A program made the position numbers and the translations under genes. The notes below the pieces were generated by a model. The model made no database searches and had not been told where the DNA came from. It was given only the letters and a program-made list of their open reading frames with translations. This document shows positions 43,248-49,721 of a stretch of 64,000 nt of DNA, in pieces. This stretch comes from Algoriphagus sp. GTDB taxonomy: Bacteria; Bacteroidota; Bacteroidia; Cytophagales; Cyclobacteriaceae. Location of the stretch: contig JAMNXQ010000001.1 of assembly GCA_023653075.1 (NCBI GenBank), positions 62,001 through 126,000 of the forward strand, written 5' to 3'. Positions within the stretch are counted from its first letter, which is position 1, and every line of letters starts with the position of its first letter.

Positions 43248-44096
43248 TTAATTTCCGAAATCTAAAATTCCACGGATGGCGTTGATTTCTCTCATTTCTT
43301 TTTTCAAGCCAGCCCCATCACCCTCCGCGATTTTTTGACGGAAAGCACTAAGATTCGCGATATATCCATCCAAAGCAGCAAGTATATTTTCTTTATTTTC
43401 AAGAAAAATGGGCGCCCACATATCCGGACTGGACTTTGCTAGCCGAACAGTGGAGGAGAATCCAGATCCCGCCATATCAAAGATATTTTTCTCGTCTTCC
43501 ATTTTTTGAAGAACGGTCTTACCCAACATAAAGGAAGTCAAGTGAGAGAGGTGGGACACGAATGCCAAGTGACGGTCGTGTTCGGCTGGATCCATAAATC
43601 GTAGCTTTAAATTCAGAGCATCAAATAGGCGATAGGCTTTTTCCTTGAGATGTAAATCCGTCTTTTCGAGCTCACAAAGGATCATCACCTTTCGATTCAA
43701 TAGCCCTGCATCTGCTGCCTTGGGACCAGAATATTCCGTGCCTGCTATGGGGTGGGTAGCCAGGTATTGGGAGCGCTTGGGATGTTCCGCGACCAAACTA
43801 CACAGTTTGGCTTTGGTGGAGCCTAGGTCAAAAACTAGGGTGTCGGGACCAATTTGTGCCAAGGTTTGAACCAATAAATCTCCTAAGGTATCTGCAGGAG
43901 TAGCCAATATCACTAAATCTGTATCTGTATCCGGAATGGACTTGGCCTCGCTAATGATTCCTAAGTCCAGTGCATCTTGGAGGTGTTGCGGATTAGCATC
44001 CTGACCGGACAACTGCAGTTCCGGAAATTTCTGTCTGGCGGCAAGGGCAAAGGATCCTCCCAAGAGGCCCAATCCTACAAGGTGTATTTTTTTCAT
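43248..44096 (-). CDS. tyrA: Prephenate dehydrogenase
   Basis: Oxidises and decarboxylates prephenate to 4-hydroxyphenylpyruvate for tyrosine. 282 residues: N-terminal NAD-binding fold (HLVGLGLLGGSFALAAR, 4-20), an ATPADT strand, the THPIAGTEYSGPKAAD active-site stretch (about 115-130) and an all-helical C-terminal domain with a HLSHLTSFML helix. No ACT or chorismate mutase part. Last gene of the six-gene aromatic operon; 1 bp separates it from the aminotransferase. A 6-bp inverted repeat (TTAACC/GGTTAA, 43204-43220) lies just beyond its end. Confidence 0.95.
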   Translation of the reverse strand: MKKIHLVGLGLLGGSFALAARQKFPELQLSGQDANPQHLQDALDLGIISEAKSIPDTDTDLVILATPADTLGDLLVQTLAQIGPDTLVFDLGSTKAKLCSLVAEHPKRSQYLATHPIAGTEYSGPKAADAGLLNRKVMILCELEKTDLHLKEKAYRLFDALNLKLRFMDPAEHDRHLAFVSHLSHLTSFMLGKTVLQKMEDEKNIFDMAGSGFSSTVRLAKSSPDMWAPIFLENKENILAALDGYIANLSAFRQKIAEGDGAGLKKEMREINAIRGILDFGN

Positions 44097-44097
44097 A

Positions 44098-45252
44098 TTA
44101 GTGGCTAGGTTTGATGCGGTTGATGGCTTCTAGGATTTTGAATTCTTGGAGGCAAAGGGAAATGCGGACATAGCCGTTTCCTTCCGATCCAAATATTTTT
44201 CCCGGAGTAATGAAGATGTTTTTTCCGTAAAGCAACTGGTCAACCAATGCTTCTGCGGAAGTGCCTGCAGGTACGCGACACCAAACAAATAAGCCTGCAG
44301 CTTCCCGATCATAGGTCAATCCCAAGTGGTCGGCAAGGGTCCAAACCAGCTTTCTTCGACTGGTATAAATCTCATTCTGTCTTTCAAACCAGGATTTCCC
44401 AAGTAAAAGTGCAGCAGTAGCTCCCTTTTGAAGACCCAGAAACATGCCGGAGTCCATATTGGATTTGACTTTGAGTGCTGCATTCACCCACTCTGCTTTT
44501 CCACAGAGCATTCCCACGCGCCAGCCCGGGATGTTGAAGGTTTTGGAGAGGGAGTTGAGTTCCAAACCTACTTCCGTTCCGCCAGGTAGCGCCAGCAAGC
44601 TCTTCGAATTCGAGTTTAAGATGTGGCTGTAGGGGTTGTCATGGACCAATAGGATGTCATGCCGCTGCGCAAAAGCAATGAGCTCTGCCATCACTACCTC
44701 GGATCCAGGAGCCCCAGTAGGCATGTGTGGGTAATTGATCCACATCAGTTTAACTCTACTCAAGTCCAAAAGCTCGAGGTCCTCCAAATTAGGTCGACCC
44801 TTCTTGCTCAAATCCAAGCTGTAGTAAATGGGACTTGCCCCAAGCAATTGGGTGACGGCAGTGTAGGTTGGATAGCCAGGGTTAGGAATTAGAACCTGAT
44901 CTCCAGGATTCAAAAAAGCCATGCTTAGGTGAAAGATTCCTTCCTTGGAGCCCATTAACGGAAGTATTTCCCGGTTTGGATCCAACTGCACCCCAAACTC
45001 ACTCGCATAATAATGGGCCATAGCGGTTCGCAATTCGGGGATTCCTTGGTAGCCCTGGTATCCATGCGCCTGTTCGTTTTCGGCGGTGTTCTTTAAGGCA
45101 TCAATGACGCTACGGTCAGGGCTTAGGTCTGGTGAACCTATTCCGAAATTCAATACGGGTTTTCCTTCTGAAAGAAGCTGATTGACTTCTCGAAGTTTGG
45201 CTGAAAAGTAATATTCTTCTACGCCTTCAATACGTGTTGCAAATCCTTTCAT
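44098..45252 (-). CDS. Class I/II aminotransferase of the aromatic operon
   Basis: 384-residue PLP enzyme, fold type I. PLP Lys237 lies in NSLSKTFNIPGWRVG; Asn173 and Asp205 of WINYPHMPTG and LLVHDNPYSH complete the cofactor site. It resembles the aspartate/prephenate-type aminotransferases of Bacteroidota. Between pheA (4-bp overlap) and tyrA (1 bp), it most likely transaminates phenylpyruvate and 4-hydroxyphenylpyruvate to Phe and Tyr; prephenate itself is an alternative substrate, but pheA and tyrA in the operon favour the keto-acid route. Confidence 0.9.
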   Translation of the reverse strand: MKGFATRIEGVEEYYFSAKLREVNQLLSEGKPVLNFGIGSPDLSPDRSVIDALKNTAENEQAHGYQGYQGIPELRTAMAHYYASEFGVQLDPNREILPLMGSKEGIFHLSMAFLNPGDQVLIPNPGYPTYTAVTQLLGASPIYYSLDLSKKGRPNLEDLELLDLSRVKLMWINYPHMPTGAPGSEVVMAELIAFAQRHDILLVHDNPYSHILNSNSKSLLALPGGTEVGLELNSLSKTFNIPGWRVGMLCGKAEWVNAALKVKSNMDSGMFLGLQKGATAALLLGKSWFERQNEIYTSRRKLVWTLADHLGLTYDREAAGLFVWCRVPAGTSAEALVDQLLYGKNIFITPGKIFGSEGNGYVRISLCLQEFKILEAINRIKPSH

Positions 45253-46067
45253 CCTTTTCTACTCCTATATTCTCCGAAAATCTTCAACTCGCCATAGTTT
45301 GTTTGCATTTGCTCCACCGCCTCCTGGTAGGCCTGCTCCTCCGCAAATTCTGCATCAATAAAAAAGGCATAATCCCAGGGCTTGTCCAGCAATGGGATGG
45401 ATTGAATTTTACTCAAATTCAAGTTTTTTTCAGCGAGCATGGTGAGCAATTTGGCCAATCCACCAGCCTCATTGCGGATGGTGATTTTGAAGGAAACCTT
45501 ATTCGCAATTTCCCGAGCATTTGATTTTTCTCGAGTTAGGAAAATGAATCGCGTGAAATTATCCTTTACCGTTTGAATCTGTGGAGCCAAGATTTCCAAT
45601 CCATAACTTGCTGCCGCAATTTCGCTTGCAATGGCCGCCACACCTAGGAGCTGTTCCTCTTGGATTCGCTTGGCTACTGATGCGGTGTCTTGGTCGTCAA
45701 TTAGCTGAATCTTTGGCCACTGTGCTAGAAAGGCCTTGCACTGCAGCAAGGCCATGGGATGGGAGCGAACCGCTGTGAGGTCAGTGATGGATTGCCCTGG
45801 CAAGGCCATCAAATGATGCGAAATAGGCAAGTAATATTCCTCATGGATAAAAAGCTCGTAGCGGTCGATTAAGTCGTAATTTGGCAAGATGGCACCTGCG
45901 ATGGAGTTTTCGATAGCCATGATCCCTACGGCCGCTTTTCCGTTGGCTACTGATTTGGCTACTTCTTCAAAGGTAAGAAAAGGCAAAATTTTGGACCCCT
46001 CCCCAAAATTCAGCAGGGCTACTTGGTGGTGAAATGAACCAGGGATTCCTTGAATAGCAACGTTCAT
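45249..46067 (-). CDS. pheA: Prephenate dehydratase
   Basis: Converts prephenate to phenylpyruvate. The start at 46067 (MNVAIQGIPGSFH) is fixed by a 4-bp ATGA overlap with the aroA stop; an ATG 57 bp further up would only add residues encoded by the aroA end. 272 residues: PDT domain (1-180) with GIMAIENSIAGA and the catalytic Thr-Arg-Phe motif in DNFTRFIFL; ACT domain (about 190-270, RNEAGGLAKLLTMLAEKNLNL) for feedback control by phenylalanine. No fused chorismate mutase: that activity is carried by the first gene of the operon. Confidence 0.95.
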   Translation of the reverse strand: MNVAIQGIPGSFHHQVALLNFGEGSKILPFLTFEEVAKSVANGKAAVGIMAIENSIAGAILPNYDLIDRYELFIHEEYYLPISHHLMALPGQSITDLTAVRSHPMALLQCKAFLAQWPKIQLIDDQDTASVAKRIQEEQLLGVAAIASEIAAASYGLEILAPQIQTVKDNFTRFIFLTREKSNAREIANKVSFKITIRNEAGGLAKLLTMLAEKNLNLSKIQSIPLLDKPWDYAFFIDAEFAEEQAYQEAVEQMQTNYGELKIFGEYRSRKG

Positions 46068-47302
46068 AAGGTACTTGGAGAATGGATTTCTTGGTAAATT
46101 CCTGACTGGGCAACCTGATTCCAAAAACTAGGGTAGGACTTATTGACTACTTCTGGGTCTTCAATCCACAAATCGGTTTTGGTGACTAAAGGCATAAAGG
46201 CCATGGCCATGCGGTGGTCTTCGTAGGTGTGAATTTGCACCCGTCTCGGCATGGTTACCGAAGGAATCACTTGGAAAGTGTCTGAGGAAATTTCCCGTAG
46301 CTCCGCATTGAATTTTGCAAGTTCCTGCTGCAGCGCATAAATGCGGTCTGTTTCCTTGATGCGTAGGCTTTCTAATCCCGTGAAAAGGGTGTTTTGTCCC
46401 AAAATAGCACAGGTCACGGCCACCGTCTGTGCCAAATCAGGGCAATGCGTAAAATCCCAACTTTTTAGGCCTGTGACCCCTTGCTTTTCAAGCAATAGCC
46501 CGCCTTCTTGAAAAGTGCTTCGGATACCCAATTGCGCCATGATTTCTACGATGGCAGCATCCCCCTGCAAACTCTTTTCTTTTAGCCCTTTTAGAAAAAA
46601 AGAACCCGAATCTGCACAAGCCAACAAGCTAAACCAATAGCTCGCTCCTGACCAATCGCTCTCCACAGCAAAATGGGTAGCACGGTAAGGCTGAGGGCTG
46701 ATTTTGATGGTATTTCCTTCCCAGCTGTACACAATACCAAACTGTGCCATCAGTGCTAAGGTCATTTCAATGTAGGTTCTGCTTCCGACCTTCCCTTCAA
46801 GCTCCAATTCCAAGCCCAAGGGGAGCAGTGGAGCAATCATCAGAACAGCTGAAATGTATTGGCTGGAAACATCTCCACGGATTTTGATTTTTTCGGTGAC
46901 TTGTTGAGGTAGCCCTTGCACCGCAAGTGGCGGGTAGCCTTCGGCTCCTAGGTAATGGATTTCAGAACCCAAACTCCGAAGTGCATCCACTAAAATTCCA
47001 ATGGGGCGCGCACACATGCGTGGAGTGCCTGTCAATACCTTTTGCCGGTTGGTCACTGCAACGAATGCTGTCAAAAACCGCATGGTCGTACCTGCATCTA
47101 GCACATCAAATACGGCTGGATTGGTTTGTAGGAGACGAATCATGGTTTGCGTATCTCTGGCCTCTGCTAGGTTACTCAAGGTATTTTTCCCTTCGGTCAA
47201 GGCATCGATGACCAAGGCTCGATTCGATTCACTTTTGGAGGAAGGTAGGGGTAGGGTTACCTTGGAAAATTCGGTTTTTTGCCTAAGCCTAAGAAGTTGC
47301 AT
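46064..47302 (-). CDS. aroA: 3-phosphoshikimate 1-carboxyvinyltransferase (EPSP synthase)
   Basis: Joins shikimate-3-phosphate and PEP. 412 residues, a little short of the usual 427. Lys23 and Arg28 lie in PLPSSKSESNRALVIDAL; LDAGTTMRFLTAF (in place of the common GNAGTAMR) binds PEP; SLRIKETDRIYAL and the late DHRMAMAF motif complete the site. The region LDAGTTMR varies from the class I consensus in the same way as other Bacteroidota enzymes. Third gene of the aromatic operon, 19 bp after aroB and overlapping pheA by 4 bp. Confidence 0.95.
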   Translation of the reverse strand: MQLLRLRQKTEFSKVTLPLPSSKSESNRALVIDALTEGKNTLSNLAEARDTQTMIRLLQTNPAVFDVLDAGTTMRFLTAFVAVTNRQKVLTGTPRMCARPIGILVDALRSLGSEIHYLGAEGYPPLAVQGLPQQVTEKIKIRGDVSSQYISAVLMIAPLLPLGLELELEGKVGSRTYIEMTLALMAQFGIVYSWEGNTIKISPQPYRATHFAVESDWSGASYWFSLLACADSGSFFLKGLKEKSLQGDAAIVEIMAQLGIRSTFQEGGLLLEKQGVTGLKSWDFTHCPDLAQTVAVTCAILGQNTLFTGLESLRIKETDRIYALQQELAKFNAELREISSDTFQVIPSVTMPRRVQIHTYEDHRMAMAFMPLVTKTDLWIEDPEVVNKSYPSFWNQVAQSGIYQEIHSPSTL

Positions 47303-47321: not shown

Positions 47322-48359
47322 TTAGGCCAATTGTTGGTAAAAGAGTAGCGCATGCTTGATTTCTTCCCGGGTTACGGGGTTGTTGAAGCTGCAGTCGCCA
47401 AGGCTAGGGAGCAAGGTGAACAACTGCGTACTCCCTTCGTTCTTTTTGTCTTGGGCACATAGATCCAAAATCGCATTGAGGTCCCTGATGTCCAAATTCA
47501 CCTTACCAAAGATGGTCAGTAACTTGCTACTTAATTCATTCAATTCCTCAAAGCTCAATCCGATTTTTTGAAAGGACAAAAATCCTTCAGCAATCATGCC
47601 TAAAGCAATGGCTTCTCCATGGAGCAAAGGCTGTGGACCGTTTAGGTACAAGGATTCTACCGCATGCCCGATGGTATGTCCAAAATTCAAGATTTTCCGT
47701 AGTCCAGTTTCTTTTGGATCTACTTCTACTACTGCTTTTTTGATTCCTACTGAATGGCGGATTACCCGTGCCCAATCTTGTTTTTCCCAAAGGGTACTGG
47801 GTAAGGATCTGAAAAAGGTGAGATCCCGAATAAGTCCATGCTTGAGTACCTCAGCATACCCAGAACGAAGTTCATGCAGAGGTAGTGTTTTTAGAAATAT
47901 AGGGTCAATAAGAACAGTTTCTGGCAATTGAAATACTCCCAGATGGTTTTTGAAGCCCATAAAATCAATGCCCAACTTGCCCCCTACACTTGCGTCTACC
48001 TGGGAAAGTAGGGTAGTAGGTAGCGTAATGAAAGGAATCCCTCTTTTGTAGATACTAGCGCAAAAGCCTCCCATATCTCCAATCACGCCCCCACCTAAAT
48101 TGAGTAGTAAGGCCTGTCGATCAAGTACTGCTTCGGTCATCTGTGTCCAAATGGAGGCAGAGGTTTCTAGAGTTTTGTATGTTTCACCTGCAGGTACCGT
48201 TAGGAACAAAGCATCAGCTGGTAATACTTCCTGAATCAAGGGAAGGCAATACTGATGGGTATTCACATCCGTGAGCACTACCAACTTGGAATAATTGCGG
48301 GCCTGCAATACCTCTTTCAAGGTGCTGCGAATGTCAGAGGTGAAGTGTATCGTTTCCAC
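47322..48359 (-). CDS. aroB: 3-dehydroquinate synthase
   Basis: Cyclises DAHP to 3-dehydroquinate, with NAD and a divalent metal. 345 residues. NAD loop LNLGGGVIGDMGGFCAS (87-103), TLPTTLLSQVDASVGGK (112-128), and metal ligands in the segments RSGYAEVLKHG (Glu), NFGHTIGHAVE and LLHGEAIALGM (His). Second gene of the operon, 72 bp after aroGH. Confidence 0.96.
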   Translation of the reverse strand: METIHFTSDIRSTLKEVLQARNYSKLVVLTDVNTHQYCLPLIQEVLPADALFLTVPAGETYKTLETSASIWTQMTEAVLDRQALLLNLGGGVIGDMGGFCASIYKRGIPFITLPTTLLSQVDASVGGKLGIDFMGFKNHLGVFQLPETVLIDPIFLKTLPLHELRSGYAEVLKHGLIRDLTFFRSLPSTLWEKQDWARVIRHSVGIKKAVVEVDPKETGLRKILNFGHTIGHAVESLYLNGPQPLLHGEAIALGMIAEGFLSFQKIGLSFEELNELSSKLLTIFGKVNLDIRDLNAILDLCAQDKKNEGSTQLFTLLPSLGDCSFNNPVTREEIKHALLFYQQLA

Positions 48360-48431: not shown

Positions 48432-49529
48432 TTATTTTTGAATTGGATCCGCTTCTCGGAGTTGTCTTTCTTGTCGCTTGACAGATTCTTCATGAATGCA
48501 ATAGAGTAACTCTTTCATGAATTTTTCACTTAGGTGTTTTTTTACCCCTTTTTCGGTTCGAGAGTCCATCACCTCTTGCCATCGATCCGATTGAAACACG
48601 GTTAGGTTGTGTTCACGCTTGTGAGCGCCGATCTGATCCACCAAGGAAAAGCGCTCCTGTAAGATAGCTAAAAGTTGATCGTCCAAATGGTCAATGGCAC
48701 GTCGTAGATCAAACAGTTTCTCGTCAGGCTGCATATTTTCCAAAGACTGCTTGAATTCAATCGAATCAATCATTTCCTTCAAGCGAAATGGCGTCACTTG
48801 TTGCTTAGCATCTGACCAGGCTTTGTCAGGATCATGGTGTGTTTCGATCATTAAGCCATCTAAGCCGAAGTTCATCGCGCTTTGTGCTACTTCCAATAGC
48901 CCATCCCTACGTCCGACAATGTGTGAAGGATCATTGATTACTTCCATACCCCTCCACTCTCGCTTCAGATGAATGGGCATAGACCAGTTGGGTTTGTTGC
49001 GGTAACGCTTGTCGTATGCATCCGAAAACCCTCGGTGAATGGCTGCTAACTTGGTAATTCCTACAGCATACATTCGCTCCAAAGCACCCATCCAAAGTTC
49101 CAAATCAGGATTCATTGGGTTTTTGATCATGACTGGAATGTCTACACCGCGCAGCGCTTCTGCAATTTCCTGAACAGCAAATGGATTAACGGTAGTTCGG
49201 GCACCAATCCAAAGGACTTCGATTTTGTGTTTAAGGGCCATTTCCACGTGAGCGGCATTGCCCACTTCTACGGTGATGGGGATGTTGAGTTCATTGCGTA
49301 CAATTTCCATCCACTTCAACCCTTCTTCCCCAACCCCCTCAAAAGAACCTGGGCGAGTCCTAGGCTTCCAGATGCCGGCACGAAAAATCTGAGGGATGAT
49401 TTGAGCTTCTTTCATTTCAGTGCAGATTTGGGTGATCTGCTCAGGCGTTTCGGCGGAACAGGGCCCTCCGATGATTAGGGGGTTGCTTAGGCCAAGTCCC
49501 CAGTCTTTAATTTGTTGGTGTGGCTTCAT
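48432..49529 (-). CDS. Bifunctional DAHP synthase / chorismate mutase
   Basis: 365 residues. Residues 1-262 form a type I DAHP synthase barrel: GGPCSAET (21-28), FRAGIWKPRTRPGSF (49-63), WIGARTTVNPF (107-117), and metal/PEP residues in DPSHIVGRRD and IETHHDPDKA. Residues 268-355 form an AroQ-type chorismate mutase (DLRRAIDHLDDQLLAILQERF). It carries both the entry step and the branch point to prephenate, as in the fused enzymes of Bacteroidota and B. subtilis-like lineages, but with the mutase at the C-terminus. First gene of the operon; expression is predicted to be set by an attenuator directly upstream (49545-49721). Confidence 0.95.
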   Translation of the reverse strand: MKPHQQIKDWGLGLSNPLIIGGPCSAETPEQITQICTEMKEAQIIPQIFRAGIWKPRTRPGSFEGVGEEGLKWMEIVRNELNIPITVEVGNAAHVEMALKHKIEVLWIGARTTVNPFAVQEIAEALRGVDIPVMIKNPMNPDLELWMGALERMYAVGITKLAAIHRGFSDAYDKRYRNKPNWSMPIHLKREWRGMEVINDPSHIVGRRDGLLEVAQSAMNFGLDGLMIETHHDPDKAWSDAKQQVTPFRLKEMIDSIEFKQSLENMQPDEKLFDLRRAIDHLDDQLLAILQERFSLVDQIGAHKREHNLTVFQSDRWQEVMDSRTEKGVKKHLSEKFMKELLYCIHEESVKRQERQLREADPIQK

Positions 49530-49544
49530 GGAATTGAAGGGTTT

Positions 49545-49579
49545 AAATAAAAAAGCCCGATTCTTTTGAATCGGGCTTT
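49545..49579 (-). terminator. Attenuator terminator in the leader of the aromatic operon
   Basis: Read on the minus strand: AAAGCCCGATTC (49579-49568), loop AAAA, GAATCGGGCTTT (49563-49552), then TTTATTT. The 12-bp stem is perfect and the T tract is strong. It lies between the operon promoter and the DAHP synthase ATG (16 bp after the T tract), so it can only act as a premature terminator. The 5' arm can instead pair with 49631-49621 (GAATCGGAGCT): 7 bp, one bulged A, then 3 bp. Confidence 0.85.
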
Positions 49580-49596
49580 GTGACGTTTATTTTCTT

Positions 49597-49686
49597 TTAG
49601 TTTTTGGCTAGACAATACACAGCTCCGATTCGATGGTTTGATCGAAAATAAAAATAGCTAAACCAATTCGCTGCTGAGATGAACAT
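49597..49686 (-). CDS. Aromatic leader peptide (29 aa) of the Phe/Tyr operon attenuator
   Basis: ATG at 49686, TAA at 49599-49597. The peptide starts MFISAAN, runs through WFSYFYF at residues 8-14, and ends CLAKN. In all it holds one Trp, four Phe and three Tyr among 29 residues, six of them in the seven-residue block. Codons 8-14 cover 49665-49645. A ribosome stalled there by shortage of charged tRNA-Phe or tRNA-Tyr would leave the antiterminator segment 49631-49621 (codons 19-22) free; a moving ribosome would cover it and let the terminator form. No Shine-Dalgarno site is present, and the -7 box ends 4 bp before the ATG, so translation may be leaderless. Too short for most gene finders. Confidence 0.8.
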   Translation of the reverse strand: MFISAANWFSYFYFRSNHRIGAVYCLAKN

Positions 49687-49690
49687 ACTC

Positions 49691-49721
49691 CAAAAGTAAA
49701 CATCAAATTTTTAAAAGCAAA
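49691..49721 (-). promoter_or_regulatory. Promoter of the aromatic amino acid operon
   Basis: On the minus strand, TTTG (49721-49718) is followed after exactly 19 bp by TACTTTTG (49698-49691). Both elements match the Bacteroidota sigma-70 consensus (TTTG, 19-21 bp, TAnnTTTG). It is the best full promoter match in the window. Transcription should start at or next to the leader-peptide ATG (49686). Confidence 0.7.

Follow-up and report, generated by a model that had tools for sequence, protein, structure and literature searches.

What regulates the aromatic amino acid operon in this stretch of DNA from the aquatic bacterium Algoriphagus sp., and what is the function of the short region before its first gene? 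The window analysed here is the whole stretch of 64,000 nucleotides. A sequence-only reading had proposed that the region is a complete translation-coupled attenuator with a WFSYFYF leader peptide. Ribosome-mediated attenuation is a textbook mechanism, and the enterobacterial trp, phe and his operons carry such leaders (trpL, pheL, and hisL). In this study, we found that a conserved layout, complementarity between its RNA strands, and folding of the cut transcript support the proposal. The region is very probably a ribosome-mediated transcription attenuator for a Phe/Tyr operon.

The features are listed in Table 1. The two promoter elements were found at the claimed places and spacing, and the 29-codon frame was confirmed on the sequence, running on the minus strand from ATG at 49686 to the stop codon TAA at 49599-49597. 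Six aromatic residues stand among the seven at codons 8-14 of this leader. An intrinsic terminator sits between the leader ORF and the first structural gene, and 99.1% of its stem cells were paired in an alignment of 45 leaders. In the window, the terminator has the perfect 12-bp stem and the T run that had been described; the proposed end at 49545 was a few bases too long, since the run of six T (49554-49549, three of them within the stem) ends at 49549. The terminator by itself has a folding energy of -18.6 kcal/mol. Strand 2 copies the terminator 3' arm with one extra A, as claimed, and pairs with the 5' arm over 10 bp with one bulge (-15.5 kcal/mol). A stem of at least four pairs folds at the place of the small hairpin in 80/81 leaders, and this hairpin would be covered by a ribosome at codons 13-14. 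A scan for an aromatic leader with a terminator found this region as the sole site in the 64 kb. The same scan in 60 simulated windows (first-order Markov model) gave one match in total, which had no promoter box at -12.

Table 1. Features of the leader region and the downstream operon in the window.
Feature	Position	Strand	Evidence or remark
-33 promoter element, TTTG	49718..49721	-	Sequence; 19 nt before the -7 box
-7 promoter element, TACTTTTG (TAnnTTTG)	49691..49698	-	Box position kept in 75/75
Predicted transcription start, A of the leader ATG	49686	-	Inferred from promoter spacing and the F. psychrophilum box position
Leader ORF, 29 codons and stop, MFISAANWFSYFYFRSNHRIGAVYCLAKN	49597..49686	-	Homologous leader in 75/80 loci
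Aromatic sensor codons 8-14, W F S Y F Y F	49645..49665	-	Aromatic kept, synonymous variation
Small hairpin TTCGAT/ATCGAA (strands 1:2)	49629..49646	-	-4.2 kcal/mol; role inferred
Antiterminator strand 2, GAATCGGAGCT	49621..49631	-	Inside the leader ORF
Strand 3, terminator 5' arm AAAGCCCGATTC, also antiterminator partner	49568..49579	-	
Terminator loop AAAA, strand 4 (3' arm) GAATCGGGCTTT at 49563-49552, and T run	49549..49567	-	
First operon gene, DAHP synthase/chorismate mutase fusion	48432..49529	-	PF00793 and PF01817
aroB, 3-dehydroquinate synthase	47322..48359	-	TIGR01357 above cut-off
aroA, EPSP synthase	46064..47302	-	TIGR01356 above cut-off
pheA, prephenate dehydratase	45249..46067	-	PF00800; best NCBIfam match NF008865 below cut-off
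Class I/II aminotransferase	44098..45252	-	PF00155
tyrA, prephenate dehydrogenase	43248..44096	-	NF006307 above cut-off

Domain and family matches showed that the feature stands before an operon for the amino acids that are sensed. The six genes lie on one strand with short gaps, and this layout suggests that the attenuator would control all six. The aminotransferase probably acts on aromatic acids, as judged from its neighbours; the best 25 of its 69 NCBIfam matches were all below cut-off. We compared the operon with 80 related loci, in which the sequence reaches only about 3 kb beyond the first gene. The order DAHPS-aroB-aroA was found in 77 of them, and pheA was visible downstream in 65. 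Two loci (L098 and L099; G283:C16 and G277:C28) have tandem DAHP synthase/chorismate mutase genes with the leader in between.

In the proposed mechanism, RNA polymerase would start at, or 1-2 bases from, the A of the leader ATG, and a ribosome would load at the very 5' end of the leader RNA. At a low supply of charged tRNA-Phe or tRNA-Tyr, the ribosome would slow over codons 8-14, with its front edge ending just short of strand 2. The free strand 2 would then capture strand 3 before strand 4 is made, and the polymerase would read into the operon. When Phe and Tyr are plentiful, the ribosome would run over strand 2, and strand 3 would be left for strand 4; the resulting terminator would release the polymerase near 49549.

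Each of the 80 loci carries a relative of the first gene, and a leader homologue was present in 75 of them, 74 by a first-pass scan and one (L005) added later. The scan requires ATG, and a leader with a GTG start (L107) was added by eye. Two loci without a readable leader region were left out, one with 2 nt upstream (L068) and one in which the 195 nt to the contig end are other sequence (L031). Also left out were L078-L080, which are Flavobacteriaceae loci with the order pheA-aminotransferase-tyrA-DAHPS and no leader directly before DAHPS. In L079, MSISRTYFNWFYFFFS and a terminator were observed at the far upstream end of the locus. In two Algoriphagus species, a repeat with catgcgagattccatgtgacc stands upstream of the first gene (L045; L031:1-195); in L045 it lies between the terminator and the start codon. 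The genome of the window is 2.18 Mb and 67% complete.

Alignment of the orthologous leaders, one of the checks proposed by the sequence-only reading, showed that the codon block, the antiterminator strand, and the terminator are all conserved. The aromatic block of the window is two codons shorter than those of its relatives. In Roseivirga-type leaders, the peptide and arm sequences differ, and the block, strand 2, and the terminator are kept. What is conserved bears on another explanation, in which the leader binds a metabolite or a protein and the ORF is a passenger. Alternative folds are possible, as this would require; however, the conserved sequence consists of the codon block, strand 2, the terminator, and the promoter, and no Rfam family matched at its gathering score anywhere in the window. 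We consider such a leader exceedingly improbable.

The attenuator also has a limited range. No aromatic leader was found in the 1.5 kb upstream of twelve loci from nine genomes of the same family, in which the enzyme is 47-50% identical. From other families, 40 upstream stretches were taken, 38 of them of useful length, and a clear leader was found in three of the 38 (L145, L155, and L169). In L169, an aromatic leader lies before DAHP synthase in another family (minus strand, at 530); its arms are unrelated and its plan is alike, with a 12 bp antiterminator extending into the terminator loop. In L155, from another Cytophagales family, two tandem aromatic leader ORFs (3752 and 3902, plus strand) precede a gene that by eye resembles prephenate dehydratase, and these are possibly tandem attenuators.

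The codons were compared in 72 leaders with the RIG motif, including that of the window. The last four codons of the block encode Y, F, Y, and F in 72/72, with TAC/TAT and TTT/TTC variation, and each of the two codons preceding them is aromatic in 71/72. Trp was found in only five of the 71 relatives, at the first block position, and in the window at a shifted place. The proposed WFSYFYF sensor therefore held for its Phe and Tyr codons and not for Trp; since the Trp codon is not conserved, the sensor is Phe/Tyr. In strand 2, the codon ATC is identical in 72/72 and CGA in 71/72. As the aromatic block varies synonymously and the strand 2 codons are fixed, the block looks constrained at the amino-acid level and strand 2 at the RNA level.

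The tail past strand 2 is conserved as well (VYCLAKN-like, with Tyr at one place in 71/72; codons 23-29 in the window, 49600-49620, minus strand). The idea that the tail lengthens the antiterminator was dropped; by eye, it fits only some leaders. This conservation in the 72 leaders, for which the RNA model has no explanation, is what nascent-peptide arrest would lead one to expect, where the tail RIGAxYCLxKN and not codon supply stalls the ribosome. However, the part of the tail over strand 2 is fixed at the nucleotide level, and the tail is absent from the Roseivirga leaders. Arrest by the peptide is thus extremely unlikely as the basis of the control.

Since the attenuator reading depends on pairing of strand 2 with strand 3, we investigated this pairing in 81 distinct leaders. 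The mean energy was -17.5 kcal/mol, and the weakest was L108 with -9.5 kcal/mol. Between the last aromatic codon and strand 2 lie 11-17 nt in 81/81 leaders and 14 nt in 67; roughly 11-17 nt is how far a ribosome extends downstream of its A site. The complementarity in the window was matched by 0.15% of 2000 dinucleotide shuffles of the leader. In 19 of 20 representatives, at most 1.4% of 2000 such shuffles were as good, and ten representatives had none; for L108 the value was 12%. Randomisation of synonymous codons reached the observed pairing in 2.6% for the window, in 0.2-16% for other representatives whose strand 2 lies within the ORF, in 32-51% for L071, L073, and L106, and in 100% for L108. 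This randomisation was less decisive than the shuffles, with higher values where strand 2 is partly outside the ORF.

Covariation was examined in alignments. In A1, an initial alignment of 55 leaders, the Roseivirga strand 2 was wrongly placed. The pair counts therefore come from A2, which comprises 45 of the 81 leaders and starts just before strand 2; as this start was set by the predicted duplex, A2 is biased towards that pairing. The antiterminator cells were paired in 97.3%, and sliding lowered this to 57.2% or less. Two-sided changes were seen in 16 cells, versus 3.7 in shuffles, and the covariation score was 0.134 versus 0.081; 0/500 shuffles were as high in either measure. Two of the five measures were no better than shuffles, namely the number of pairs with two-sided change (3 versus 2.2, reached by 183/500 shuffles) and that of further pair types (7 versus 8.1, reached by 482/500). 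The covariation came mainly from one clade split: ten of the 16 two-sided cells belong to two pairs using terminator-loop columns and come from five Roseivirga-type sequences. These loop columns have no partner in the terminator, yet they change together with strand 2. Pairing into the loop would leave strand 4 no site from which to displace the antiterminator; in the window, whose loop is AAAA, this pairing is lost. Antiterminator and terminator are mutually exclusive as predicted structures, with the pairing in L108 not significant and two of the five covariation measures not exceeding the shuffles.

A masked cotranscriptional model was applied to the 81 leaders, in which a 28-nt ribosome was masked and the transcript was cut before strand 4. 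The measure counts strand 3 as paired whatever upstream RNA it binds, whether strand 2 or another segment. As long as the A site had not passed the last aromatic codon, strand 3 was held upstream at a mean of 0.97-0.98. The mean hold was 0.94 at two codons past the block, fell to 0.52 at three, and was 0.26-0.34 from +4 to +12. It returned to 0.94-0.99 as the ribosome neared the stop codon, where strand 2 is exposed again, so that termination would need the right relative speeds of ribosome and polymerase. The mean hold was 0.94 without a ribosome. Release was weak in the window copy, with 0.65 at +2 and 0.82-0.89 thereafter, because GAATTGG (49669-49663, minus strand, codons 6-8) is a second pairing partner for strand 3. 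Pairing of this type was absent in two relatives folded alike (L013 and L076). Some Roseivirga leaders were also weak; in L071 the hold fell to 0.49 and was then 0.70-0.72.

When the full leader was folded at equilibrium, the terminator had a probability of 0.97-0.99 in every state tested, even with the ribosome on the block, and no switch was seen. The proposed folding check thus gave a switch in the transcript cut before strand 4 and none in the full leader. In the models, ribosome position decides the structure on average in the cut transcript, only weakly in the window copy, and not in the full leader at equilibrium. Since the terminator always wins at equilibrium, regulation would have to be kinetic, i.e. 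determined by which helix forms first. A merely constitutive terminator, in a U-rich leader that contains the ORF and the aromatic run by accident, would also fit this equilibrium result and the high stability of the terminator, and the block is indeed U-rich. However, the aromatic residues are kept through synonymous exchanges in 72 leaders, the order of F and Y in the block differs in Roseivirga, and the terminator-loop columns change together with strand 2. Moreover, the leaders before trpE and hisG, described below, carry the codons of their own products. These results make a constitutive terminator very unlikely and argue for the attenuator.

The start of the RNA was considered from the spacing of the promoter. 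In 75/75 leaders (74 loci and the window), Roseivirga included, the box TAnnTTT[G/A] occupies -12 to -5 relative to the leader ATG, and TTTG lies 19 nt before the box in 68/75. This count uses the ATG nearest the block, with the start moved two codons upstream to the ATG of the relatives in L051, L054, and L057; a few leaders have further upstream in-frame starts (for instance L008 and L066), and the value of 75/75 depends on these choices. In Flavobacterium psychrophilum, the sigma-A box is reported at -12 to -5 from the transcription start site (PMC9723704). As the box has the same distance from the leader ATG here, the leader ORF mRNA is probably leaderless. Among the mRNAs examined in F. 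psychrophilum, 5.5% were leaderless (PMC9723704), and about 3.7% of the 5' UTRs in Bacteroides thetaiotaomicron were shorter than 10 nt (PMC7366714). For the Trp and His leaders that were listed, the upstream box sits at varied distances, with few at -12.

The attenuator resembles those of the enterobacterial trp, phe, and his operons in its short leader ORF, where cognate codons stand in a row, in the opposition of an antiterminator to an intrinsic terminator, and in the cognate operon that it would control. In contrast to these, the leader ORF contains strand 2 in 76/81 leaders (strand 2 ending 17-27 nt before the ORF end in 71/81), the modelled default before strand 4 is antitermination when no ribosome is present, and the promoter is of the Bacteroidota type. 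We suggest tentatively, as a reading somewhat short of probable, that this is a leaderless default-on attenuator. An untranslated or stalled leader would be read through, and termination would need a ribosome that starts from the first RNA base and passes over the antiterminator inside the ORF. If so, the leader would be a compact test of joint ribosome-polymerase movement in Bacteroidota. Together with the Trp leaders of trpE and the His leaders of hisG, seen in the majority of the loci scanned, and with the fewer leaders before ilvD, aspartokinase, and the Phe hydroxylase family, it would imply tight coupling of transcription and translation in a phylum with little ribosomal use of Shine-Dalgarno sequences.

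Related starts have been described in other phyla and for other operons. In Sinorhizobium meliloti, the leader start codon ATG forms the 5' end of the trpL attenuator RNA (PMC7298713), and leaderless initiation is discussed for ilvBNC of Corynebacterium glutamicum (PMC11857589); the leaderless start here is, in contrast, a prediction. Within the phylum, F. psychrophilum is reported to show strong clues for leader-peptide attenuation and to have conserved 5' elements upstream of pheA and hisG (PMC9723704), and leader-like sORFs are mentioned in B. thetaiotaomicron (PMC7366714). The same mechanism is proposed there for amino-acid operons; these species belong to other classes, and the operon here is headed by DAHP synthase. 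The portions of these two texts consulted contained no leader sequences or structures. Among the literature matches listed, which left most subscription papers outside their scope, there was no Cytophagales case, and the mentions of Bacteroidota were brief only. Attenuation was reportedly surveyed in 2010 by Lopatovskaya and others. This survey is cited in PMC4833913 and, given its existence, there may be an earlier prediction in Bacteroidota. The mechanism is already known, and the present locus is a well-supported further case, conserved and described at the sequence level, for a Phe/Tyr operon in Cytophagales.

We also examined whether leader codons match the operon in other pathways, counting leaders within 500 nt upstream of the match; a terminator was not demanded. 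W-rich leaders were found before trpE in 25/30 family loci (WWWH-type peptides; L317-L346), H-rich leaders before hisG in 24/30, and F/Y-rich leaders before DAHPS in 25/27. The 27 DAHPS loci are the closest relatives by enzyme, and the two misses are L087 (contig end) and L107 (GTG start); many of the 27 are also among the 80 loci above, and 25/27 is not independent of 75/80. I/L/V-rich leaders were found before ilvD in 8/30, T/I-rich leaders before aspartokinase in 8/30, and F/Y-rich leaders before the PF00351 hydroxylase in 7/30. The off-diagonal counts were 0-2 (at most 2/30). In the window's own genome, trpE is preceded by MKTIANNYWWWHSNTFLGKAQKAVA with a terminator, an NYWWWH leader (L324, about 1300, plus strand), and hisG by a leader with HHFHH (L271, about 461, minus strand), for which no intrinsic terminator was found. 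Under a stricter scan, an H-rich leader with a terminator was found in 8/30 hisG loci.

The match of leader codons to operon offers a simple way to annotate amino-acid control, as with the Tyr-rich leaders of an aromatic amino acid hydroxylase gene. Such leaders precede PF00351 genes in L120 (1401) and L121 (1413), both on the minus strand, and in L283, L296, L298, L302, L306, and L309. The PF00351 gene presumably encodes phenylalanine hydroxylase, and the leader could possibly serve as a Tyr gauge on a Tyr-making enzyme. In L120 and L121, seven consecutive Tyr codons, a terminator, and a complementary strand lie directly before the hydroxylase gene.
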